NCBI RefSeq assembly: GCF_963675165.1
Contig: NC_087381.1
Span: 2,604,001 to 2,668,000, forward strand
Length of the DNA stretch: 64,000 nucleotides
Reading direction: 5' to 3'
From: Halichondria panicea
Lineage: Eukaryota > Porifera > Demospongiae > Suberitida > Halichondriidae
Part shown: positions 26,709 through 45,978 of the stretch, piece by piece
Position numbering within the stretch: position 1 is the stretch's first letter
How the letters are laid out: each line of letters opens with the position of its first letter
Notes under the pieces: generated by a model
Told to the model about the DNA's origin: nothing
Databases searched by the model: none
What the model saw: only the letters and a program-made list of their open reading frames with translations
Translations under genes and position numbers: made by a program

Positions 26709-29700
26709 GACACACAAACACACTACCGTATACCTCGCTTGCGCATGCGCACCGAGGCATAATAATTATTTTTACTGGTTCTATAATTAGAACGTTTACG
26801 GCACACTGTATACCGTAGCGTAACTGATGACATGTACAGTGTACAGTGTGATTTCTAACTGCTTATACTTTTGTATACCCCACTACTACGAGGCTCAGAC
26901 TGTTTATTGCTCAAACTGTGTTGTTGGATCACCTCTCATTGTACACATACATGTACATGTAGCACTACAGTACTGACTTGTGTTCTCCTCCTCATAGGGG
27001 CTCTACTGACGCTGTGAAGCTAGCACATCAGTGTATAACCTCCCTCACCAAAGACCCCAGCCAAGAGCTACCACAGCTCATCCGTAGGATCACTGGAACA
27101 CCACCTATTACCACAGCCGCTCAGAAACGCTATGTACCTCCGTCAAGCGATCCTAATCCAACTCTGTACCCCTACGATGAGTTACCGGGTGCTCCACCAG
27201 CTACTGGGAACGCTACAGCACATGCGTACACTTCTGTGTCTTCTCCCATCACTGTGACAGCAAGCATCAGCAACCCTGCTAGATCACTACAGAAGAAATC
27301 GAGTAGTTCTCAGATTGTGCCTAGTGGAGTCACACCCGTGGCTGGTAGCAATAAGAGTAAGGCTAATACTACAGTTATTATGGCCTCACACGAGAAGGCT
27401 GTCATTGACACAAAGCCCACGTTTGTTACGAACGTTGTACCAACATCTCGTGCCTCGGTTATCGGCACTACAATGTCTGCTCAAGGTCTACCCTCAGGTC
27501 CTGCTCCTGTACTAGCGAGGAGCTCTTCAGCTGGGAGTACCGTACAGCCAGCCACTTCTGGTGCTGTACGTAAGCTCTTTGTTACATCCACTCAACCTGT
27601 GAAGCCACCACCAGCATCGAGGGCTCCATTTTCAAACAGCTCCAAGACGATTCTATCTCGTTCAAATTCAAAACCTATCATAACTCAAGATACTAGTACT
27701 GTCGTGAAATCTAGCAGCACTGAGTCAAATTGTAAACCTACTAACAATACGTATCCTCAACAAGTCCCTGTTAGTACAGCTAGCAAGACCATGTCCTACT
27801 CTCGAATTATAGCCCCTCAAGAAAGCATCAGAGGTCAGCCTAATGAAGTGATTGAACAGCCAGTCCAACAGATCATGAAATCACCCACCTTCTTTCAAGA
27901 AGCTGCCACACAGATCTCAAAACCAAAGAAAATCTCGACGTATTCGGATGCAGTTGGAAAGAAGTACCAATCAGCCATGGCTAGTGGAGTGAGCTGCAAT
28001 AACTTTGGTAACGAGAACGCTCGCATGATGGGATCAACTGGAAGTGTGTATCCACCATCTTCTAGTGTTGGTGGAGTCTCTCCAGCTCAGACCCAGTCAA
28101 CTAAGATGAACCTAGCTCCTGGAACTAGGCCTGTGGGTGACAATGATAAGGTGAGTGGTGATTGTCTTGTTTACAAGAGCCAGAATTCATGTACATACTG
28201 TACTTAAGAGCTGTATGTGCACATGATATGATTTCAGAAGTGTTACGTTATTGCTTCACTGCAGCTTACTTCTTGCATTCTTATTAAAGCATACTTCATT
28301 ATACATACATGTATGTAAGCCTCCTTTCATTAACAAAAGTACATCACTCACATTTATACATTGTATATCAGTTTTTCCTTTTAAGACCCTTTACCAATCT
28401 GTCTGGTAAGGGGTCATTAAGATAGGAAATCAAATATTACATGTACCTGTCACATTACTTTTATTAATTTTTCCTCTCCTGTTTTGTAGCCTGTAACCTC
28501 CCTTGCTGACAAGCGTAATGGCAGTAACACTCGTAGTGTCCCCTGGGGTGATCTGGTGGACAAGACCTCACCAGACTATCACCAACAAGGCTTTGAGGAT
28601 GAGAACAAAGACAAGCTCTCTCCACCTTCCTCTGGCCTTGGACCTATAGGACCACCCAGCAAGTGAGTTGTACTAGTGATTTTGAATCACCATAATCCAA
28701 TATTAATTGCACGGGTTGGTCCCACAAAAATCCAATCTCTCTTGTTGTACCTGTAAATCATAATAATTATACGTGCATGTTATGTACAGTGTATCTCTAC
28801 TCCCTTAGTCACATCAGTGCTTGTTGTACAGTAAAGTATTACATTGTTATGCTGGTGTAAAACTCTGCATTTAGTACACAGTGTTTGTATAGTGTTATTT
28901 GGTTTGTCCCTCTTCTAATTTAAGCATTCTCTCTATTTCCTCCAGGTCATGCAAGCCACTGAGCACTACCCCAGTATCAGCGGTCAAGAGTGGCCCTCGT
29001 AGCTACAGCCCCAGCTCTAGCAGACCCAGTCCAGCCGGTGTGAGCGCCTCTCCTCAAAGAGCTGAGTTATCCCCGGCAGCCAAGAGCCCTCTACTGGGAC
29101 CAGCCCCTCCAGGCCTACTACCGCCGCCTGATAAAGGTCAGTGTCATGAATTATCCAACAAATTCTGAGCCACACATGATAATGATAATAGGTGTGGGGA
29201 TAGATAGTATAGTTACACCTTCATAACTCCGTTAAAAGTTGAAACCCTGTGTGATCCATACCCTACCTGTGGTCAGGTCAAAGTGTTTTCCCTTCCGTTG
29301 TTTGTAGCTACAATGTAGCATTTACAATCATACTTAATGTATCCATTTCGTGAAGTTTTCACATGTACACTGTACATGTGAATAATTATACAGGCTGTAC
29401 TAAAAAGTCATTTTCCACAGTACCCTGTACATGATTTGTACATGTGCAGTGTGTATTGTGCCACAGTCTTAGTGTAGACTGTGTGTATTATTGATGATAT
29501 CTTACTGTACAGGCTATGGCAGCTCATTTCGACCTATCCATGGAGTGGAGTACTCGTCCCAGGCTGACACTCCTGGGTCCTCGAGTAATAACAGCTTTCA
29601 GACTCTTGTACCCACCCCTGTACGAAACCAACGCCCACCACTTCTAGCCACACCCCCTGGACTATCCATGTTACAGCAAGGTAAGCACAGGGGGGTTTTG

Positions 29701-32700
29701 TATGGACAGGAGTACCTTTAGTTCGATTTCTCATTCGTACTTTTCTTCAAGTTATACACGTTTTTTGACTTTTAAACAGATGTGGCCTTCTTTGTTAAGG
29801 GGTTGTTTGCACACAAACTGTTCATTTAGAATCGGTGCTGACAACCTTTGTGGTACAATATACAATATAGTTCGCCCTTCTTTAATGGTGACCATTGAGG
29901 AGTCTTCTACTCTATAGTGCTTGTCATAATAATTATTCCTAAAGAGAGTGTGTATTGCGATGTAGTCTGAGTACATTGTACATGTATTATTGAGGTCCCG
30001 CTAATCTAATAATCCAGTGTATCGTCCCTTCACAGGTGTTCGCCCTGGTTCAATCACACCCTTAGCATCACCAGACAAGATCTCTCCAAATAAGAGTCCT
30101 CCTCACCCATCCATGAACAAGGGCTTCAATCCAAATGCTCCTTCGTTTGTCCCCATGGCTCTTCAGCCAGGCCCAAGACCATCTGTGGTACGTTGGTTCT
30201 CTTCAGAGTGTATTATTTTGAATACACATACAGTGTACAATGTACATGTACATACATTTTTGTATCTCTAAATTGTTACATGTACACTCCGCATGTTGTT
30301 TAATTTTGAATATCCCCTTGGCAAACCTACATGTACATGTACCAGGAGCACATTAACAACTACATCTCATTTTGTGTGCTCTCTATTCACTTATACAGGT
30401 AACGACCAGTTCTATCCTAGGGGCTCCCCCTACTGTCAAGTACCATAGTTTTGGTCCACCCACTGCCGTTGCTGGGGGCAACTCGATCCTCGGTGCCCCT
30501 CAAATGCCTCCAATGTACGGTAACGCAAACACGCAGCCTAGAATGGTCTCACCCGTGCCGTCAATTTTCCCTAATCAACCCCCACCCCCTAATGTGATTC
30601 AAGCCCCTGGGCCCCCTCAAGGAACCCAACAACAACCACAGCCTGCTGGGGGGCAAACGTCAATTTTAGGACAGCCTCCCCCGATATTTGGGGGGACTAT
30701 GTTACCTCAAGGATTTTCACCAGCATTACAAAATCAGCCTCCAAGTGGTATTTTCGGTGGACCTCAAATTGAAAACAACCAAGCTCCACCCCAATCTCTA
30801 CAGCACCCTCCTCCTCCGTTTGGCATTAATTTGATACCATTTCAGGTCAATGGTCAACAACAACCATCTCAGAATTTCGTCGGAGTTCAGCCAACACAGG
30901 TTTTAGTTTCGACCCCTCTCGCTGACGGATTCCAAGTTCAATCTGACGCACAGCAAGTTGGTCATGCAGTGATTGTATCAGCCAACAACATGGACTTCTC
31001 TGCCAAAATGGTAGGCTCTGCGATGTATCCGAATAAATCTGGCGAAGCAGTCATCGATCTTCGTCAAATGTCAGCCAACACTGGACTCAGTATTGGTGTT
31101 CCCGGGCCTGTGTTGTTTTCGGCCACCACACACTCTCCCAATCTCCCCATTACGTCCCCTGGTGTGTCAGGAGTGAGAACCAACGATTCTCTGTTCAACT
31201 TGAGCATGGACAGTTTCTCTGGCCTCTACCCAAACACTCAGACAGTGTCTGTGGTAAAGGACCCCAAAGCAGCAGTGGACGCTCTCTACGCCAAGGGCTC
31301 TAAAAGTAAGTGAATATTTCTGTTTCTTTGTAGATACCCAAATTCATTATTGTATGGCTGCATGTCTCTTGTACGTGTACAGCTAGTGCATGTAACACAC
31401 ATTTACGGTACTCAGTGTTAAAAAATGTTTGTTCTTCCTACCCAAACAAGTTGTGAGTAATGTTACACATGTATAAGCTGTACTGGTAGAAATCATCGGG
31501 AGTTGTTCAGGCGTATTTTCACTTTTCATTGTGTTCCTGCAGTGGCCATGTCAGGGGAGGGTGTGATGGCTGATGGTCTGCTACCCATTGGTACTGAGCG
31601 TGCCCAGAAGAGCTCTGCCATGCCCTCATTCACTGTGCTAACTCCAGGTGTGTACACTGCGATATTTTTTTGTAGTACAGTGCACACACACCAGCCCATG
31701 CATGTACGTATTATACATGTAGATTAGTGCTGTGTAAAGTTGACTAGTACATATATGTACAATGTATGTACTTTAGTCTTGGTGTTATGCTCTAACACCA
31801 CCGTCTATATGATTATAGAATAGTGCTGGGTAAATATTGTGTTGAACTTTTGTCCTTTGTTGATTGTACAGGTATTCTGCCATCCAATGTTTGGAGTTAC
31901 TCAGGAAGTACTGGTACGTTAGCTACATGTGTCATCAGTATACGTGTACTGTACATACGATTATACATACATGTACGTGCCCATGCACATACTAATGTAG
32001 CATTTTGTGTAGCCTACGTACAGAGAGTAACTGTACAAGGCAATTTTCTTCCAAATTTTGTTTTTACCCCCAATGTCTCCTTCTCTCTACCCCCAGAAGA
32101 CAGTGACTGGTCCAAGGTGGGGCCGGTGGAGACCAGTTGGCCTAGCCTGCCTGACTCCACACTCAGCCCTCATGACACCCTCGAGTCTGTGCTGGGCAGA
32201 CTGGGCCTGCTTGACTACTATCATCTGTTACAGGTGATTAGACACAGTACTTGAATGAGCACTTCACAGTACAGTACAGTACAGTACAGTACAGTACAGT
32301 ACAGACATGTAATTGTATGATGTGCTATTAGTGACTGAAGCAATTAATCCCATATACATCCGGTCCAGTAATTGCACGTTGTCATTGCACTCGTGCTATT
32401 AATCCCATATTAACCAATTGTTCACATGTATGCTTATAGCTATTAATCATGTACAGTTTATAAAATCTTAGCTAGCTCACAGTTTTATATTTTACAGCGT
32501 AATGAAATTGATCTGAACGCCCTCATGCTAATGAGTGAACAGGACTTTGCTGAAATTGGACTACCTCCTGTAAGTTCCTAAAATTGCATATAGTGTGCAT
32601 AATTATACATGTACATGTACATGGATGTGTACGTAGTTTACAACGTTGTAAACGTCATGTAATTCCCTTGTGTGTAGAAGCTGTGTTATTAGAGTCTATT

Positions 32701-34497: not shown

Positions 34498-37400
34498 TCA
34501 ATAACAGCTAGGTAAGTCACCTTTTTGTTTTTTTGTTGGTGGTCCATTCTCCTCACTCTCTTCAGTCACAGCAGCTGTATATAGCGAGAGTATAGCTGTA
34601 TTGAACCACACTGTATATTTATGATCGTAGTGAGCTTACGTTGTTGTGGCAGAGGCTTTAGGAAGTCAGTAATTTCAGTGTAACCCCGCTGTGTAGCAAT
34701 GTCACGAGGAGTATCGCCATTTTTGTCAGTTGCACCTGAACAAGAATGGTGGTGTAAAGCAAAAGTATAACACTGGGAGCTAGTACTCACTGATATCACA
34801 GTTGGCCTTTTCCACTAAGTACTGCACCACATCTTTGTGTCCCCGAGCGCATGCATTGTGGAGTGGGGTCCTGTTGATATTATCCCTCACATCTGCACAT
34901 ATATATAACACACCATGGTACTATTAGTAAAACCAGTAGGTTTTACATAGGATTGGCAGTGGGTTTGCCCGTGTTTAGCAATATTTCAATTATTTTGACT
35001 CGTGTTCAAACTGTTCTATCTCTGCAGGGAAAGGCCACATCAAGAAACTGGCTGAACAGATAGTTTATTTAGCCTTTTCTCTCTTTGTATCTCTCATTTC
35101 ATAATCCATGAACATTTTAATGAATGAATATTTTCATTTTAAAAATTGCACTATTTCGACGTTTCACCGCTCTTTGTCTGACTGACTAAGTAAGTAAGTG
35201 AGTAAGTAAGTAAGTTTCTTGCCCAGCATTTACTCCAAGTACAGCCATCTCCAGGACATTCTGCACAGGGTTTCCAAACGACTACAACCTGGATTACAAA
35301 GCGCTTCTTCAGATTTGCGATTGCTTCCACGAGGCAGATGACCTCTCAGTCTCTATTTCTCTTACCTAGACAATTCCGCCATCTTTAATGACTCAGCAAT
35401 TGCGTTGTGGCCAATAATAATAGATAGGCGTGGCTAATAAACCGTGTGCCTAAAATCAGTGCAGCAGTGCTTTTCCAGAGCCTGAGGTGTTCCTTTTCTT
35501 CACACTGTTCAGCTCTAGCTCCCTTTCTCTGACAGGCATGCTATATGCACTGGCTAGATATCATGCTCTTAAAATGGCTGTCATTTAATACTGATTCGCA
35601 AATTCAACATAATTATCAAGCAATAAATTATTACTCATTATACTATAATTATTAGTCCAGAGATATTCTAGAAGATATCTGATTAGTCCTGTCTTCTCTT
35701 CTTGTACTGCCTCTTGACGTTCCACTTATGCATGTCATGATACGTAAACTGTACTGAAAAAGAAAGGGAATCCGACTAGAAAAACATTTGCAATGTGAAA
35801 AATTGCTAGGATTGGCCAGGGGAACCACAAAAAAGCGTGGGAACAAGAAATCAGACGAGAGCATAACTCCAATCCGTTACAACGTCATGAACATGTACAA
35901 TACATAGTATATTAAATAATAGACTGTGTTCCAGATCCACCTATCAGCTTCCATCCACCACATCATTCCATGCAGTCACCAGTACGGTCCGTGCATGTTA
36001 CTACGCATGGATGGACTGTGTGTACCTGTGCTCAACACTGCATGTATTAGGAACATCAATTCATCACAAATCATCATGATTATGTGCCCCACATTCTAAA
36101 ATGGATGTATAATAAATATATATAGGGATTGGTCATCACTCCACCAGTAAAAATTGCGTGGCATATTGGCTGGGAAAACATGGGAAAACTACCAGTATAT
36201 ACATGTGATTGACGTTGTAACGGATTGGAGTTATGCTCTCGTCTGATTTCTTGTTCCCACGCTTTTTTGTGGTTCCCCTGGCCAATCCTAGCAATTTTTC
36301 ACATTGCAAATGTTTTTCTAGTCGGATATACATAAGGATTGACAGTGCAAGTGTGTGTTTTCAATTATTGCACACATTTTGACTCGTGTTTAGACTGCTC
36401 TATTCTGCAGGGAAAGGCCACACCAAGAAACACACTGGACTGATAGCTTAGTTAGCCTTTTATCTGTCTAAATGTGTTAAGCATGCATAATAGATTATCA
36501 AACTCACTCTTGGGGTCAACCTTGTCTTGCTCAACCAGTTGTTTCACCACACCCAGCTTGCCCCACCAACATGCTGCACACAGTAACTTGACCTTGTGCT
36601 CATCACCACCACAGCCACGGCTCATTAGGTAGAGAGCAACATCCATGCAACCATCATCCAGACAGCCATACAGGTAGTCAGAATTCAGAGCTATGTTCAG
36701 TGGTGATTGTTCCCAATCATCCGTTACATCTGCAAGACAGTAAATTAGCATGGTTATGAGTGCGACAAACAGTCACAGGGTATACTATAGCCAGTCAGTC
36801 TGTCTGTCGTTCTGTGTATTCTGAGTCTGCTCATCTGGATGCGATAGCACTGTGTTTGTACTATGGATAGCCTCAACACAACAAGGTAGTATAGTTTTAA
36901 ATTTGGCATATTTTGATGTTAAAGCTTCGTTGTCGAATAAAAGCGAACAAAAGCTAAGAAGCTCTAACCTGCACGTTGGTCTAGATGTTTACATGCGGCC
37001 AAATTATAACGCCGAGGTTTGCACTTCAGTGCTCCAGTTGGCACAGTAGTAATTAACTAGTGCCAATAATTATAATTTTAATTTCTAGAAACCATGCAGA
37101 CAGGTTGAGCTTGGACATATAATTATAAAGTCTGTATTGCCACCATAATCAAATACTGGCATTCCTTTTAAAAGCACAGTAGCTAGGTCATCATACTCAC
37201 TCTTGGGGTCAACTTTGTGTTGCTCTATCAGTTCCTTCACCACACCCAGCTTGCCACATCGACTTGCTGCACACAGTAACTTTTCCTCGTGCATACTCCA
37301 TCCACAGCCACGGTTGATCAGGTAGAGGGCAACATCCACACGGCCTTCTTCATTATCGCACTCATGATAATCAGGGCCTAGAGCTTTGTCCAGTGGTAAC

Positions 37401-40400
37401 TGTAACTCATCCTCATCCTCATCTTCTTCATCAAAACCCTCCTCATCGCTCCACATATAGTCTCGTTTGTTCCATTCATTGACAGGCAGTTCTAAAACAC
37501 CCCAAATGTTATCAGACATAGTGTTACCAGAGCTTTATGAATACCATAATTATAGCGAGTAATTCAGGGAGAGGGGGGAGGGGTTAAAACATTCAGAGCA
37601 CTACTTTTGTGGTTGCTACTTGCATCCAGAGCCCAAGGTCAATAGGGTCACTTTTTAACGAAAACAATAATATCTTGTCCTGGATTATTGACCTGGATTA
37701 TTGACCTTAGCTTGGATATAACAGCTATATATACTGCTTCTGTTGTTTTTGATCGTTTATTTGCCTATCCAGCGCATGCAGCAAACCAGTACATCAAAAT
37801 TTATACCATAGCTAAAGAAGGCATATCTTGTAATCTCTTTTCTCTAGCTGGTTCGTCTGGGGCTCAACTGATTTCTGTTGTGATGAAGCTAGTAGTGGTG
37901 AGGGTGAGCTCAGTTATATATGTAAACGTCTGCATAAGGCTACGTGGTGTAAACTATTGACATTGGCGTACCCCTCTGGCTTGGACCCAGATAAAGGTGG
38001 TCAATGATTATAGGCCTTGCCCAATTATGCTCAAAATGTTGCCTATTAACTCATGTTTTTACCTATAATATTATAGTCTTCGATTTTTACAACATTACGG
38101 AATCTTCTACCATAATCTTTTGAGGTACTATTGTTGGTGTTCGGCTGCCTGTAATCGGTGTACTGGAACACTGGACTGGACTGGACTTTGACGCAACACC
38201 ATGCATGCAATTACATTCCTTTTCCTCATCAGTAACAAGACCACAATGACAATACTATAGTAAACATGAAAGCAGCGCGGGTGCTGATGCCTTGGTGTAC
38301 GCATGCAGTATACTAGCACTTCAGTCTATTATTATGCATCGGTGCACATGCGCAAGCAATGTATACGGTGTGTTTTTGAGTCTGTCTGTCTGTCTGTGTG
38401 TGTATAGACTGCTACAGCTGCTCAAGGATCAATGAAGTGCAAGTAAGAGTTTCATAGGCTTTTATAGTCATAGATTCTAATTTGTGGATTTGCAAAATAA
38501 TGCTTCGTTCTCGAGATATGCCTTACTTGGAATGCCATTGCAGCCTTTTTAGAAGAGTGCGTAACAAAACTTGTTCACCGAGTGTTGCTACTCTACTTAG
38601 TAGTTAGCTCTGCACTAGAACGCTAGCTATTGGTAGCTGCAACAGTGAGAAGAGAGCTGCAAGGCTCTGCTGATGGAGCTAGACTTGAACTTTTGGCATA
38701 GATCGTTTTTAACAACAATCGTGGTTGATCATTACCCACTCTTTAATAATAATACAAAAAATATTCATCATGTAGTTTAATGGAGTTAAATAAACGTAGT
38801 TAACGAAGTAATACACTAACCGCGGCCTTACCTCGAATCACACAGTCGTAGGTGTGGCTTCCAGTCACATGCATGCCTATCGCACATGCGCATCCATGGT
38901 TCCACGTGCTAAAGTACAGCCGCTGTCAGCGAGCCACAGACAAATTGGCTGCTCAAATCTTATGCCTCCCACCCTCCCATTCACGGAGGTTAAGACCTAC
39001 TTTCCATCCGACGATGTTGATATACTGGTTGGGGGGCTGAATAAGGGCCCCCAACACTTACGTGCTTAATGCTAATCGCAGGGGCTCCTCTCTCAGTACT
39101 CCCCCAAAACATTACCGCAGTCACGTGACCCCTAACCTCTAGCGTGACAGGGCACGTGACATCTGCTTAGACCGGTACTTCCAAAAGATAGTAATATCCT
39201 CACCTAGGATATGACGCATTCCTAGATCGCAGTCATTTACTACAATCTGTATGACCATAGTTAAATGATATTATGTGTGTAGCTTTATATTATCATTGTT
39301 ATGTAGCTTTGCACCTCCACCGGGCTAGAAGCTTGTGCGTACAAGTTGCTCACTAGATTACCGTTCTATCTACTTCCTTCAATCTACTTCTTTCTGTCTT
39401 GACGTCATTGTTTTACAGAACATTTACGCTGTTATTTGTAGCCTCCAGATACTGGGGTAAGATTGGGGCATGCGCAGGCAGTCGTTACCAAGTAGTGAAC
39501 AGTATATGATACTACAGAGAACATTCAAAGGCACAATAGAATTAACACTCACTTTCGGGGTCAACTTTGTGTTGCTCAACCAGTTCTTTCACTATATCCA
39601 GCTTGCCCCACCAACATGCTGCATGCAGTAAGTTGTCTTTGTCCTTATCACTACCACAGCCACGGCATATCAGGTAGAGGGCAACATCCAAACAGCCTTC
39701 CTTCTCTCGCAGAGTGTCAGGATCCATAGCTATATCCAGTGGGGACTGTCTCTCATCATCCCTCACATCTGTAATTTAACATAATTATAGATAGTCAGTT
39801 ACACGAAATCTGATTTAACACTAGAGCACTAAAGTGCAAACCCTCGGCTGGTGACATGACATGATTATAAAGAAACCATATAATGCAGTGCATGTAGTGA
39901 TGAATATCATGTATGACTTATTAAACTGTCTAGGCAAGCAACTCAGGAAGCTAACCAGACTGGAGGCATGCTGAAACATTTGAGAACAGAGTTTTATATA
40001 CACTGTGGACTAGGATCACAGCAAAGAAGCCTGGAGTCTCATGCATAGAAGTGAAGTAGGATCCCAGAGTCTAGTCTCGAATACCCGCCTCAACCTAAAA
40101 GCTTTTAGGTTGAGGCGGGTATTCAAGACTACCCAGAGTCAGCTAACAGAACTGAACCAGACACAACTGTGATTGAATTCTAAATACTTATCTCACAGAC
40201 TACTGCTTTGAAGGGTTTGCTCCCACTGTTAGGATTGACTGTGGACACCCCTTTCTTGTGAAACAATCAAAGCACATTGCAAATTATTTACCTCTTCAGT
40301 AACACTCTAATACTTTTGAGCGAAAGCAAAAACATGGTGAGAGGCACAAATAGTAACGACTGCTTACCAGTGCTGCAGTTGACCTCCTTGATCAAGTACT

Positions 40401-40782
40401 GCACCACCTCGATATGACCTCCCGAGCATGCCCAGTGAAGTGGAGCTCTGTTAGCCTCCCCACCACCGTCATCAGTAAAACAGGTACAAGCTCCATGGCC
40501 GGATAAATGGGTAACAAGCATCTTTACAATCTCAAGGTGGCCGTCACAACAAGCTCTGTGTAATGGAGGCAACCTTGTTCCCCACTCCTTACTCCAGTAG
40601 AGCTGGTGGTTGGGGCATGCCCCGCATGCCAACAGAGATTTCACTTTCGTGACATATTTGTTACGAACAGCCTGTATTAAGCTCTTGGCTAGCTTTTTCT
40701 TCAGCGTGGCTAGCTTCTCTACCTTGGCTAACTCATAGTTAGAAGAGGAATGCTTACGAGCTGTCTGCTTAGTACGGGCCAT
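34498..40782 (-). CDS. Ankyrin-like protein with histone H3-identical N-terminus
   Basis: Minus-strand exons: 40368-40782, 39553-39768, 37201-37491, 36508-36729, 34791-34892, 34640-34735, 34498-34574, giving about 472 residues; all introns are GT-AG and phase 1. Exon 1 encodes MARTKQTARKHSSSNYELAK, a Lys-rich helix, then ankyrin repeats (LPPLHRACCDGHLEIVKMLV, APLHWACSGGHIEVVQYLI). Exons 2-4 encode three related modules of 72-97 residues with the theme DVALYLI.RGCG...LL.AA..GKL.VVKELVEQHKVDP; exon 3 adds an acidic insert. Exons 5-6 give ordinary ankyrin repeats (RTPLHNACARGHKDVVQYLV; DTPRDIATQRGYTEITDFL). The tail has NGPPTKKQKG, an NLS-like run, so a nuclear role is plausible (inference). An in-frame ATG at 40815 would add 11 residues (MILLLGAAGTC) before the H3-like start. 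Precise function unknown. Confidence 0.82.
35005..36475. repeat. Duplicated intron segment beside ankyrin modules
   Basis: A tract at about 35000-35095 (TTTTGACTCGTGTT...GCAGGGAAAGGCCACA) recurs at about 36370-36465. It lies next to exon 4 in the second case, so the module duplications appear to have carried flanking intron DNA with them. Confidence 0.6.
35771..36326. repeat. 117-bp inverted repeat in ankyrin-gene intron 4
   Basis: Arms 35771-35887 and 36210-36326 are inverse complements of equal length (start TCCGACTAGAAAAACATTTG). The 322-bp spacer has no coding content. The arms share the motif TTCTTGTTCCCACGC...CCAATC with scattered repeats near 45790, 46870, 54735 and 57310, so this is probably a foldback element of a local family. 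Confidence 0.85.
38330..38760. mobile_element. Family D element, inverted copy
   Basis: This is the inverse complement of the nested element at 26212-26760: it begins TGCATCGGTGCACATGCGCA and continues with the TGAAGTGCAAGTAAGAGTTTC, AATAATGCTTCGTTCTCGAG and TACTTAGTAGTTAGCTCTG tracts. A partial end of another copy (TGAAAGCAGCGCGGGTGCTG) abuts it at 38269. It lies in ankyrin-gene intron 2 and is non-coding. Confidence 0.75.
40073..40130. repeat. 58-bp near-perfect palindrome
   Basis: Two 29-base arms meet without a loop at AAAAGCTTTT; the arms (AGTCTCGAATACCCGCCTCA...) have a single mismatch. It lies in intron 1 of the ankyrin gene. Such zero-loop palindromes can extrude as cruciforms and are usually unstable. 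Confidence 0.9.
40753..40782 (-). other. Segment coding MARTKQTARK (histone H3 tail mimic)
   Basis: Ten codons ATG GCC CGT ACT AAG CAG ACA GCT CGT AAG. After methionine removal the protein would start A-R-T-K-Q-T-A-R-K, identical to H3 residues 1-9, with the K4 and K9 equivalents. Identity ends at residue 10 (His instead of Ser). What follows (HSSSNYELAKVEKLATLKKK) is basic but not H3. Confidence 0.85.
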
Positions 40783-40815
40783 GCATGTGCCTGCCGCGCC
40801 AAGCAAGAGGATCAT

Positions 40816-42378
40816 GAGAGATGGATCATGAGGAAGAGACTAGCCTCGAATCCAAAGCAGCCAAAAGCTTAGCCTCCATTCTAGGCCGATTAAATGCGGC
40901 CATGAATCGAGGCTACCAAAACAAAAGAGTGCCATTAATGGGTGTGGCTTTGCAACGACCCGGCGCGCGCCGAGGTTGGACACGTCACGTGCAACAAAAT
41001 TACTTTACGCTTCCAGATGCCGTAGAGGGATAGTTTTAGTTGCTGTAGTGAGCTAGCTCAGGTTAAAATAATTGTCTCGCTGGTGGATGCAATGAATGAT
41101 ACAAGCCCTACACTTTAAAAAATAGTGTGTGGTTTGCATGCTTAATTTTGGCAAATATCAGGTAAAAACGCACATTTGTACAAGTTACGCAGCTTGCATT
41201 AAAACCACACATCATGTTTTTACAGTGTATAAACAGAAGATGGTGTATATCCCTTTCCTTGGCAATCTGTTGTAGAAATTACAACAATGGGTAAGGAATC
41301 GTTATGATGAATTAGATGAAGTTTTATGTGAGCTCCTCCCTGACAAACAAAGTGTAGTCTAGGTAACGGCCTTATCAGTCAAGTAGGCTAAAAATCTGTG
41401 TCCTTTGATGTAAGCTTTGATGTCTCTTTGTGCATATGTATATGTAGTTATAAAAAAAAAGAAACCTTTGACTAGCTAGGAAGAGTAGCAGCAGTAGTAG
41501 TAGGAAGAGTAGCAGTAGTAGTAGAAGCAGTGCAAGCAGGACTAGACTAGATTAAAAAGTTGGTGGAACGAATAACTGACCGTTTGGACGTCACCTGGCT
41601 GCCAGACTTTCATCTGGACTCTTCCCCCTGAGTAGCTGGCCTTTCTCTAAGCCACAAAACTGAGCAAGAAGCTGAAGAAGCAGCTAGACAGAGACATGTA
41701 CCTAGCCTTGAGAATTGGGAGGAGTGGCTCAACTAGTTAGCCCAGCCCAGAGGAATTGTTACCGTGGGTACTGAACAACCGTAGAAGTAGGGCTACCCCT
41801 GGCTTTACTGAATTAACTAGCTGTGTCTGCTGTCTAGTTGGACCAGATTTAGCTAGATAATGGGGTAGAGAATAGTTGAGCGGTGCTGTGTGTAGCTTGA
41901 ACTGTACTGGCTGGCAAGAATCTAGTAAGCACCCTATGCACTGATAACTCGTCAGAATGGAGGGTATGTTCTAGGGATCTGAACAGCTGTACATCCAAAG
42001 GAGCCAGGGAGTGCCAATCATCTTCTCCCAGTCTCTGACACGCTAAACAAAAGGAGCTAGAACTGGGAGTCCCAGCTAGAATTGCTAGCCTGATCTAGAA
42101 TGACATGGAGGCGTGGTGAGGTGGGATCCATACTAATTGATCGACCTAAAGACGCTCCTGTTCCAGATTTCACGAATGGCAAGGAAAGGGTTATACACCA
42201 TTCTCACACTGCTATTATTCAAATTGTAAAAAAGATTGATATTCTGGAATATTTGGCACAGGCGTAGCCTCGAATCCATGCCGATTAATCGAGGATGAGG
42301 GGAGCCCCATATCGCTTCTATACACTGTATTCCTCCTGCGGCTACACCTTGGGGCATAATTAATATAGGGTATATAAA
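40816..42378. other. Intergenic region upstream of the ankyrin gene
   Basis: It holds a small palindromic tract with AGCCTCGAATCC / AATCGAGGCT at about 40846-40916 and the GC palindrome GGCGCGCGCC near 40961. A 121-bp MITE lies at 41109-41229, a (AGT/AGC)n-like tract at 41481-41535 and another TAGCCTCGAATCC piece at 42266. A 70-codon plus-strand ORF at 40821 overlaps the palindromic tract and looks fortuitous. The segment 41560-42120 is open in no long frame and I recognise nothing in it. Confidence 0.5.
41109..41229. mobile_element. 121-bp MITE
   Basis: Ends TACACTTTAAAAAATAGTGT and the inverted TGTTTTTACAGTGTA, with inner inverted motifs GTGTGGTTTGCATGC / GCATTAAAACCACAC. Only one copy is seen in this window. 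Confidence 0.6.
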
Positions 42379-43850
42379 TTATTCATGTGGCACACCGAGT
42401 TCATTTGATATGTTGAGAATTCTCTTGTGACTGTCTCCTTCTTCTGGGAAAAGATGGTAGTAAAAGTCTATGTCTTGTGATAGCTTTTGGAGTACGCAAA
42501 CTTTTTGCTTTTTTGTTAGTTGAGCATAGACTTCTTTTTGGAATGTTGCTGTGTCCGTACCATTTTTTCCTTCATAATACCCTCGTAGTAGTAGGCTCGA
42601 GTTTCCATGGATCTTGTCCAAAAGCACCTTTGCATCTCGGTTAAATGACTTGAAGTTACCATAATAGTCATATCTTATTGCACAAGGTGAACAGAGGTCA
42701 AATATTGGCAAAAAATGTTTATCTTCTCTTGCACCCGTGTCTAACCAGTATGTAACAAAATCAAAAAATGATATAGCAACTTCTTTTTGTCCTCCTGCTG
42801 CATACCATTGCTTGTACTCTTGTGGATGTGTGTGTTGGTAAATTTCTTTCTTGATCCAGTTGTAGTGAGGTGTGTTTCGTTTAAATCCTTTCAGTGGATA
42901 CTTGTGAACTTTGTCTCTGTAAGCGCTGACAAGCCTTTCCAATGGATTTCGATACATGATAAATTTGTAATAATCGTTCAACGCTTTGTTGCGCTCTTTA
43001 AAACTGAGAGCCTTAAGTGCTGTACTGAAAACTGTTGAGATAAACACAGGGTCAGTTCTTGTCTGCTGATACACATTTGGTGACCAATTTTTTAGCAAGC
43101 CTTGACTTTGAAGGAACGCAATCTTGAGGTGTGTACAGCCCACCTTCAGGTGAATAGAAAGTATAGTTATTTTTGGCTAATATAGGGTTTATTCTATCAC
43201 GCTCAATCTACAATGGAACCTGTAACGAATTGGGGAACAGAGTGTTGGCAATTGTACAGATTGAGGTGACCTTTGTTGAGTTGTATATATACATGCACAC
43301 ACACTGTTCATTTGTGATCTGAGTGCCTGGCCTTCATATCGTATAGTTGGCCTTTCTACTGTATACACGTACGTAGATGAAAGCAATTGCATATTGTACA
43401 CTAGTTCTCTTTAGGTATTAGTTAGTATGGTGGCACAAATGTACTATCTACAGCATTTGATTACAGACCCCCTTACTTTTGGAGCAAAACAGTACAGTAC
43501 TTTGGAATCTTGGTTAACAAGTATCTGGCGAAGAAACCTTTCTTCTGGTGCCCTATGACCATAGTTCGATTCTTTTGTTAAGTTGTACTTCTGACAAAAC
43601 CTTTCCACTTGTATCTGTATCATAATATCTCTGATTCTGCCATGTGTCAGGACAAAGTGTATATATTCAATTTCACATGTTTAATTGTAGAAACTATAGA
43701 GACATATATATAACTATAACAAAATTAAACAGTAACTTACTGTACATTGTCTTGTAAAAGAGTTCCTCTCTGTAGATGTAGATAGTTAGTCACAGCTAGT
43801 ATCAGTAAAATAAGTATGACTAGAATCTTAAGTTTTGTCCTTGGGCACAT
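42379..43850 (-). CDS. Carbohydrate sulfotransferase (HNK-1/chondroitin 4-O-sulfotransferase family), type II Golgi membrane protein
   Basis: Transfers sulfate from PAPS to sugars of proteoglycans or glycoproteins in the Golgi. Exons on the minus strand: 43741-43850, 43477-43636, 42379-43143; 344 residues, close to the family's usual 340-430. Exon 1 gives MCPRTKLK, a membrane anchor (ILVILILLILAV) and a short stem. The 5'-PAPS loop CFAPKVGCTHLK spans the exon 2/3 junction, and the 3'-phosphate motif is FIMYRNPLERLVSAYRDK, both hallmarks of the Sulfotransfer_2 family. Further family-like pieces are DFVTYWLD and HFLPIFDLCSPCAIRYDYYG. N-glycosylation sequons (NSS, NGT) are present. The open frame of exon 3 could look like a gene starting at a GTG (43143), but that GTG is the internal Val of PKVGCT. 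The precise sugar acceptor cannot be told. Confidence 0.9.
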
Positions 43851-45978
43851 TGTGTTGATCTGTGTTGATCCATATGTACAAAGCTATAATTCTGTAGCAC
43901 ATTATTCGGCTGTGTAAAACATGTTACCAGGTAGATCACTAATGCAATTTCCTTAGTGTTAATTGCCAATCTTGTAACTGCTGTTACACTCACTGTGCTT
44001 GCATTGTATAGATCTAGTTTCAGACACTTGAATTAAAAATTCTGTACATGATTCTAAACATGCAAGTATTCGAAGTATTTAGCAGTAGAATGTTCTGGTT
44101 AGAAATGAAATACATAAATCGTGTAAGTGATGAATACTAGGCATGCACATATTAGATCTATACACTTAACATCAAACAGGCGTCATTACTCCTTAATCAC
44201 ACTTTATTTAACAAATTTTCCTGTTCTTCCATGTTCAAAGTACGGTATCTAAAACTGTATACACGTAAAACTGTTTCCACTTCATTTCAGGTCAAGGTCC
44301 TGTCTTCACATCAGTTTTACGGCCTCAATGGCTCCGGTTTAGCAGACATTGGACACGTCGTAGTTACACCAACCAGTACAGCTTGCTTTATACATCTTCC
44401 CAGATATTTGTTAAGGCCAATTAAAACATCTTCAATCATATTCAGGCTGTGAGACTTATTTGAGTGTAATTTAAGTCTATACCAGCTAGCCCCACCTATA
44501 CCTACCCCACTCCACTAGACTACATGCTTGCACTAGATCCAGACCTCAAGAATCAGGTCTTTCCACAACATGGTGTAACAAGGATTTCAGCACAATAAAA
44601 AGCACAATACTATTTATAAGGTGAGAGAATATTTTATACTTAGCTAGATTCCAAGCGAACAAGCTATATTATTATGAACCAACCATGTTTTTATAGTATA
44701 TAAACCGATGATCACGAGCAGAAAAATGATTAAACTATATATGTTGTATTATTTTTATACATGGTAACAGGAGTTCTTTATGAACTCCTGATGCATGGTA
44801 ATCATTATAATAATATGCACATGGATCACTGTGAAGTTGTGGAGAGCTCGCATTGGGTTGTTCAGTGGTGAGAGGCCAGGGGATCGCGACAACAAAGAAG
44901 TAAAGCTCCCTCAGTGATATACTGACTATAGTGGGTATACTACTGCAAAAGTGGTTCAAGGTGGATTGCATGCATAATCTCAAGTTTCTGAGCTTTCAAG
45001 ATAAAACTGAACACACAAGGAATGTTAGTCTCCTGGTAATATCGATAGTTGTGTTACTCGATCCACTCTCTTGTCCATACACCTTTTGTTCTTAGCTGCA
45101 TGGAGACGTTGAGAGCAATCCTGAGCCTCGAATGAGTAAATTTACCTTTTGACCTCTGAGATCAAAGGAAATTAATGCAGTTGCCAATATATGCGCTGTG
45201 CATGGTGAGTGCCATTATTATGTCAATATAGAATATTGCACTGTGAGTAAAGTGACCTTTGAAGACCTGAGTCCACCCTCCAACCAAAATAGCAAAACAT
45301 ATTGCAACACTCTCTCTCAACTGTTTGTGCATGGTGTCTGAGGATCGAGTATACACCTCAACCAGACAACCAACAATTCAAAACCACTCCACATATTTGG
45401 TTACGTACCAACTGGAGTCTTCTGTGGGCTCATCATACGCTCGACTATAGTTTCCCAAGGCCCCACGGAATTCTAAGCCAATATCATCCCATGTGGCACT
45501 GTGGCTGTGTCACAATATACCGTATAGCGGGAAATTTTCGTGGGTGCAAAATACTGTCTATTTGGCTCCAAAGCCCTCAGCAGAAATGTTTGTGGTTTCT
45601 AGTATTCGCTTTTAATGCCAGGAAATCACACCCACCAATAGCTTAGCTTTGTATGTGAAATACCGGTACGTGGGAGCTTATCCCAATTTTAATTTTCGCG
45701 TTAACTATACTCTGCCCTCACAAAACGTGAAATTTTGCATTTCCTATACTGTATTACATATTATACTATAGGCCTTCTTTTCTCGTAAGAACTCTCTCCC
45801 ACTTTCTTGTTTCCACGCGTTTCCCCATGCCAATTGATAATAGCACATTCTATGTTTCACTTGTTTGACATAGCTATACAAAACTAATGTGTCTATACGT
45901 ATAATTTTTATACATGCAGTGACATTGTGTACAGTGAAAATACAATTAGTCTACAAGCACATTAATAACAATTCTATA

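Follow-up and report, generated by a model that had tools for sequence, protein, structure and literature searches.

In the genome of Halichondria panicea, a 64,000-nucleotide stretch of contig NC_087381.1 (positions 2,604,001 to 2,668,000; hereafter the window) contains, on its minus strand, a predicted ankyrin-repeat gene whose protein would begin with the first nine residues of histone H3. The gene model comprises seven exons running from 40782 down to 34498 and has 472 codons without interruption (1,419 bases with the stop codon). For the six exons after exon 1, AG acceptors and GT donors could be placed so that the junctions are in phase 1, and exon 7 ends in a stop codon. A first-pass annotation of this DNA had placed the exon of interest at 40368–40782 without naming a strand; these coordinates agree with exon 1 to the base, on the minus strand, where the ATG lies at 40782 and the donor GTAAGC directly follows 40368. 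The features of the locus are as follows.

40753..40782, minus strand: H3-identical codons MARTKQTARK (from the sequence and the genome pattern search)
40681..40782, minus strand: N-terminal module, residues 1–34; present in five degenerate copies, absent from three 96–97% identical gene-body copies
40368..40782, minus strand: exon 1, with H3-like tail, basic linker and ankyrin repeats; donor GTAAGC (Pfam, gene model)
39553..39768, minus strand: exon 2 (ankyrin), phase 1 on both sides (gene model)
37201..37491, minus strand: exon 3 (acidic insert and weak ankyrin); acceptor picked to keep the frame, the least certain junction
36508..36729, minus strand: exon 4 (ankyrin, weak; gene model)
34791..34892, minus strand: exon 5 (ankyrin; gene model)
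34640..34735, minus strand: exon 6, ankyrin-like by eye, with no Pfam match for the frame tested
34498..34574, minus strand: exon 7, ending PPTKKQKGDLPSCY and a stop; three further family stretches have a C-terminus like it
40784..40786, minus strand: out-of-frame ATG four bases before the MARTK ATG, opening a five-codon reading frame (MHGPY, then stop; read from the sequence)
40813..40815, minus strand: in-frame upstream ATG, use of which would hide the tail (read from the sequence)
40870..40915, no strand assigned: palindromic high-copy repeat of 46 bases, lying ~90 bases 5′ of the start codon (genome comparison)

Exon 1 and the C-terminus

Exon 1 begins MARTKQTARKHSSSNYELAK... and continues into ankyrin repeats; in a longer reading, its N-terminal stretch is MARTKQTARKHSSSNYELAKVEKLATLKKKLAKSLIQAV... 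As the first-pass annotation had claimed, the first ten codons specify MARTKQTARK, identical at 10/10 residues to the initiator Met and A1–K9 of H3. The identity ends sharply after K9, where the ankyrin gene reads HSSSNY and H3 reads STGGK. The ankyrin repeats that had been proposed in frame behind the tail are recovered by Pfam (Ank_2, 4.4e-15, residues 35–135), and the best-scoring solved chains for the exon are designed ankyrin proteins, with most matches beginning at residues 17–31. No histone family was listed for the ankyrin-gene frames scanned with Pfam, and the PAF domain (PF15715) was not listed among the seven Pfam matches of exon 1 at E<=10. Given use of the 40782 start, the predicted protein carries Met followed by A/V-R-T at its N-terminus, as in PAF15-type proteins. 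Its free N-terminal peptide would be ARTKQTARKHSSSNYE; the other version of the tail, given for comparison, is VRTKQTVRRHSSS.

The PPTKKQKG end, which had been read as a fit to nuclear entry, does exist, in a separate exon (34574–34498), and its KKQK fits a nuclear-entry consensus. The end is not specific to this gene, however: family members on contigs C2, C4 and C11 end alike, their SEEN..PPTK termini reading SEENRPPPTKKQKGD, SEENRSPPPTKNRKGD and SEENGPPPTKNQNG, respectively. It was not seen in the single C1 stretch examined (L029). Because relatives have the same C-terminus, a nuclear signal at this end was rejected as specific evidence.

The ankyrin family and degenerate copies of the module

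The gene belongs to a large family. Exon 1 has 151 homologues in the genome at E<=0.001, including itself (150 of 1128 first-look candidates were scored); among the matches listed, most begin at residues 22–37 and a few at residues 5–17, and residues 1–4 are covered only here. Two of the 13 stretches searched, many of them with little upstream DNA, have a short first exon, MDT(DT)SQQDSELE, that precedes a GT donor; the ankyrin gene has the H3-like module in its place. Some family exons contain stops. Three copies of the gene body (C8:3778519, C2:4627537 and C2:2652261) are 96.7–96.8% identical over 1.8 kb, and one of the C2 copies matches on in blocks through exons 3–7. Set against close copies, the exons differ by 9 silent and 13 replacement changes, for a pooled pN/pS of 0.39 (one-sided Fisher test, P=0.027); the pool consists of exon 1 from residue 35 and exon 2, compared with the C8 copy (0.46), and exons 3–7, compared with the C2 copy (0.35). 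For exons 1–2, pN/pS against the two other copies was 0.55 and 0.64. Read in the frame of the window, exon 7 of the C2 copy contains one stop. Between the exon 3 and exon 4 blocks of the C2 copy (L024, 2338–2987) lie a second gene end, PPPTKKQKGD, and an exon-1-type ankyrin exon, and because of this extra family gene end and exon the block looks like a tandem array.

The N-terminal stretch matches 13 other places in the genome. The module is present in five of them, in each case degenerate, and the matches at the other eight cover just 41 bases beyond the module. Four of the module copies are nearly identical (three on C2 and one at C1:8218534; 88% over 122 bases) and read MVRTKQTVRRHSSS, or MVRTKQTVRRHSSSSMS in the longer reading, before a stop. 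The fifth, at C1:4174016, is without 11 bases, reads QTVRRHSSSNYE and then also stops; the gap is most simply a loss in this copy, and H3 position 1 is missing from it. The tail remnants in these degenerate copies are VRTKQTVRR or QTVRR. A pattern search allowing three mismatches returned five places, namely the four similar copies and the window (the gapped copy cannot match the pattern), and M[A/V]RTKQT occurs at eight places in the genome, which are the window, the same four copies and three H3 genes. The four dispersed copies match H3 at 6/9 tail residues.

On its 5′ side, homology to these four copies extends a single base past the MARTK ATG and leaves the upstream ATG outside, which suggests that this ATG does not belong to the module. 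Since the RTKQT core is common to the ankyrin gene and the four dispersed copies, the module with this core is, judged from the sequences, older than their split. In the alignment, inspected by eye, the broken copies share changes that are lacking in the window and in the ankyrin outgroups, and the window shares one change with the C2 body copy; by these shared changes C1:4174016 groups with the dispersed copies, and the window pairs with the body copy on C2.

Origin and proposed role of the tail

When all codings of MARTKQTARK were searched in the 131-Mb genome, four places were found, the three H3 genes and the ankyrin gene, and the reversed pattern, used as a control, gave none. From the six-frame composition of the window, 8.6e-6 exact matches are expected after an ATG (about 9e-6 over all ATGs), and an exact nine-residue match has an expectation of 2e-7 per 30,000 assumed starts. 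Such figures take no account of other striking peptides a reader could notice, and very many famous peptides could catch the eye. A drift of some basic N-terminus to the H3 sequence is also helped by the fact that a 6/9 match, as in the four dispersed copies, is not rare (~0.08 per 30,000 starts, under assumed amino-acid frequencies). Chance matches that start with Met do occur. In a prokaryote collection of 257 billion bases, 20 contigs match the ARTKQTARK pattern, 18 of them with the exact peptide and 2 with another reading. Met directly precedes the peptide in 9 of the 18, and 7 of these begin MARTKQTARKSTGGK, like eukaryotic H3, and are probably eukaryotic contamination in prokaryote bins. 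The other two (L030, in a 56-residue frame, and L037, in a 25-residue frame) are not H3-like and correspond to ~0.001 per 131 Mb, counting any frame, anywhere, with no open gene required behind the match. None of the prokaryote match stretches (up to 75 residues from the motif) was ankyrin-like, as judged by eye only, and viral contigs yielded no match to the MARTKQTARK pattern. On the other side, an open gene model of several exons begins with the match in the window, and in simulations from a V/R version of the tail resembling that of the degenerate copies the exact H3 tail, a step from 6/9 to 9/9, was reached in just 1–3 of 60,000 trials after 3–8 random changes. Drift from the V/R version to the exact tail thus appears improbable. 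The match to the H3 tail is unlikely to be chance on these figures, and an N-terminus that became H3-like by coincidence is, in our view, quite improbable.

The first-pass annotation had suggested capture of the 5′ end of a histone gene. The 5′ end of an H3 gene fused to an ankyrin exon, with the tail as a functionless relic, would agree with an identity that begins at the start codon and ends sharply after K9, but the DNA does not bear this out. The tail codons match the three H3 genes of this genome at 24, 22 and 23 of 30 bases, which is the level of random re-encoding of the peptide (mean best 24.7–25.0 of 30; 24 reached in 78–83% of trials); the seven H3-like copies from prokaryote bins match the tail DNA at 22–25 of 30 bases. 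Past residue 10, similarity to H3 is at shuffle level (residues 11–34, P=0.33; residues 11–27, P=0.20), and no DNA match to the H3 loci was found at E 1e-3 over 1,400 bases. In a relic, moreover, replacement changes should accumulate at the same pace as silent ones. The sequences show no trace of a recent copying event from H3 DNA, and we consider a relic of capture distinctly unlikely; the codons of the donor could, however, have been lost through concerted evolution of the H3 genes. Because the silent sites differ from H3 as in random re-encoding and all ten residues agree, the peptide appears to have been kept or to have arisen by convergence. Either it is of old origin and was retained as silent sites turned over, or it is convergent, and in both cases selection would have to be invoked, unless the donor was hidden by concerted evolution of the H3 genes. 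The sequences agree best with selection for the peptide, whether retained or convergent. A resemblance to H3 reaching LAT..KS (H3 20–28) was rejected, being at shuffle level, with KKLAK common to the ankyrin relatives. An origin from the PAF15 gene was also rejected, as its first exon, MVRTRANPAAARK, is not similar to the module DNA, in a comparison made by eye only.

Candidate readers of such a tail are encoded in the same genome. There are 12 matches to the SRA domain, 8 of them over the curated cut-off, at no fewer than seven places on one contig (at least 7; C4:637547-1309529; L050, L052), and one UHRF1-like locus (L052) has UBL-, PHD- (CDECD) and SRA-type reading frames, recognized by eye. 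UHRF1-like genes are apparently expanded on C4. A PAF15/PCLAF homologue (62 bits) lies at C2:8296540-8296935 (L051) and starts MVRTR; a probable intron follows its short first exon, and an in-frame TAG apparently falls inside this intron. With UHRF1-like and PAF15-like genes present, candidate partners are available. An initiator Met before Ala is generally removed. In the predicted protein this would expose ARTKQTARK as the free end of an ankyrin scaffold, with a basic stretch behind it, and if the protein is translated from the 40782 ATG and enters the nucleus, this end could serve nuclear readers of the H3 N-terminus as a docking handle or decoy. The ankyrin repeats may bind a second protein and bring it to the reader, or the whole protein may titrate the reader. 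A UHRF1-type PHD finger would be the most likely partner, since the PHD finger of UHRF1 recognizes H3 by its ART end and PAF15 and DPPA3 by their VRT motifs, and helices after VRT strengthen the binding of mouse DPPA3 (PMC11187062, PMC7060239). For H3, the PHD fingers of mouse and human UHRF1 show a KD of ~1.6–1.7 uM (PMC11187062).

We tentatively favour, as a possible reading, an ankyrin protein that carries a copy of the H3 tail, under selection, as a decoy or docking handle for H3 readers. A more specific version, in which the ankyrin scaffold bears an exact nine-residue H3 copy with no detectable copying of H3 DNA, the peptide is selected, and the protein decoys or recruits PHD readers with its K4/K9 equivalents possibly methylated, is unlikely as a whole.

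Alternatively, the tail may never be presented, either because the locus is silent or because translation starts elsewhere, at 40815 or within a different exon; the gene would then be just another ankyrin paralogue in a set of segmental copies. An in-frame ATG is indeed present at 40815, 33 bases ahead of the MARTK start, as the first-pass annotation had warned, and would give MILLLGAAGTC-MARTK. The out-of-frame ATG at 40786, which is not named in that annotation, opens the MHGPY frame, which overlaps the MARTK start and could hide or reduce the tail. An acceptor-like CAG ends at 40791, eight bases ahead of the MARTK ATG, which makes a 5′ exon conceivable; two other family members do have a separate short first exon. 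Stops in some family exons, and stops or gaps in all the other module copies, point the same way. Non-presentation is nevertheless somewhat unlikely: the upstream ATG lies outside the homology to the four dispersed copies, no match to the MDT..SQQDSELE exon better than E 0.25 was found in window 40783–44000, and the frame is open across seven predicted exons. Several further observations weigh against a selected H3 mimic. The genome holds only one intact copy with the tail, and the three gene-body copies stop matching at residue 35 and hence are without the module. Where preserved, the other module copies have V, V and R at H3 positions 1, 7 and 9, versus A, A and K here, and no outgroup carries the module, so that both triplets stand as candidate ancestral tails. 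The pN/pS result applies to the gene body, with the tail outside it. Some relatives have a degenerate basic C-terminus, the two Met-started prokaryote matches that are not H3-like exceed the composition-based expectation, and a single AlphaFold2 run on exon 1 with no alignment gave an unusable model (mean pLDDT 50.9).

Around the gene, no long copy of 40784–41012 was found among 40 scored of 50 candidates, the palindromic repeat excepted. Farther upstream, a repeat of ~250 bases at 41248–41500 is 93–97% identical in at least 39 other scored places (283 first-look candidates), and 41013–41200 has an 82% identical copy at C5:2695274-2695452, ~50 kb away. A sulfotransferase-family frame (PF03567, 1.2e-20) occupies 42379–43143 on the minus strand, upstream of the ankyrin gene and on the same strand. 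On the plus strand, long open frames of 414 and 318 codons, proline/serine-rich by eye, lie at 26963–28207 and 30357–31313.

Relation to known histone mimics

N-terminal H3 mimics are a known kind of protein; a limited literature search found none on an ankyrin protein and none with nine identical residues. If the favoured reading is true, a cellular protein with a copy of A1–K9 could be read, written and erased by the H3K4/H3K9 machinery, and might cross-react with H3-tail antibodies. If made, the protein could possibly compete with histone H3 for tail readers, and an organism with several UHRF1-like loci would permit a direct test of decoy action. The gene would then be a case of a histone tail re-invented on a repeat scaffold.

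The large ankyrin family of this genome (C1, C2, C4, C6, C11 and others) has the ankyrin exons in common with this gene, and its members on C2, C4 and C11 have the SEEN..PPTK end; two members start MDT(DT)SQQDSELE at the place where the ankyrin gene has the H3-like module. Among established mimics, PAF15 (PCLAF) is likewise a non-histone protein with a free [A/V]RT end directly after the initiator Met (PMC7060239, PMC11187062, as far as their available text goes). PAF15, the closest N-terminal mimic known, resembles H3 at the first few residues only, with VRT in place of ART (PMC11187062, available text), whereas the predicted ankyrin protein has nine H3-identical residues and an ankyrin body, with no PAF domain listed for exon 1. 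DPPA3 (Stella), a competitor for the UHRF1 PHD finger through VRT followed by helices, offers a model for decoy action (PMC11187062, available text). Its motif is internal and its function experimental, whereas the function of the ankyrin protein is only proposed; ankyrin repeats are unmentioned for DPPA3 in the available text of PMC11187062. Viral histone mimics such as influenza A NS1 and SARS-CoV-2 ORF8 similarly place a short H3-like motif in a non-histone protein (PMC11980394, available text). There the resemblance consists of an H3-like sequence or an ARKS motif, whereas in the ankyrin gene, a cellular gene, it comprises the full nine residues at the predicted N-terminus.

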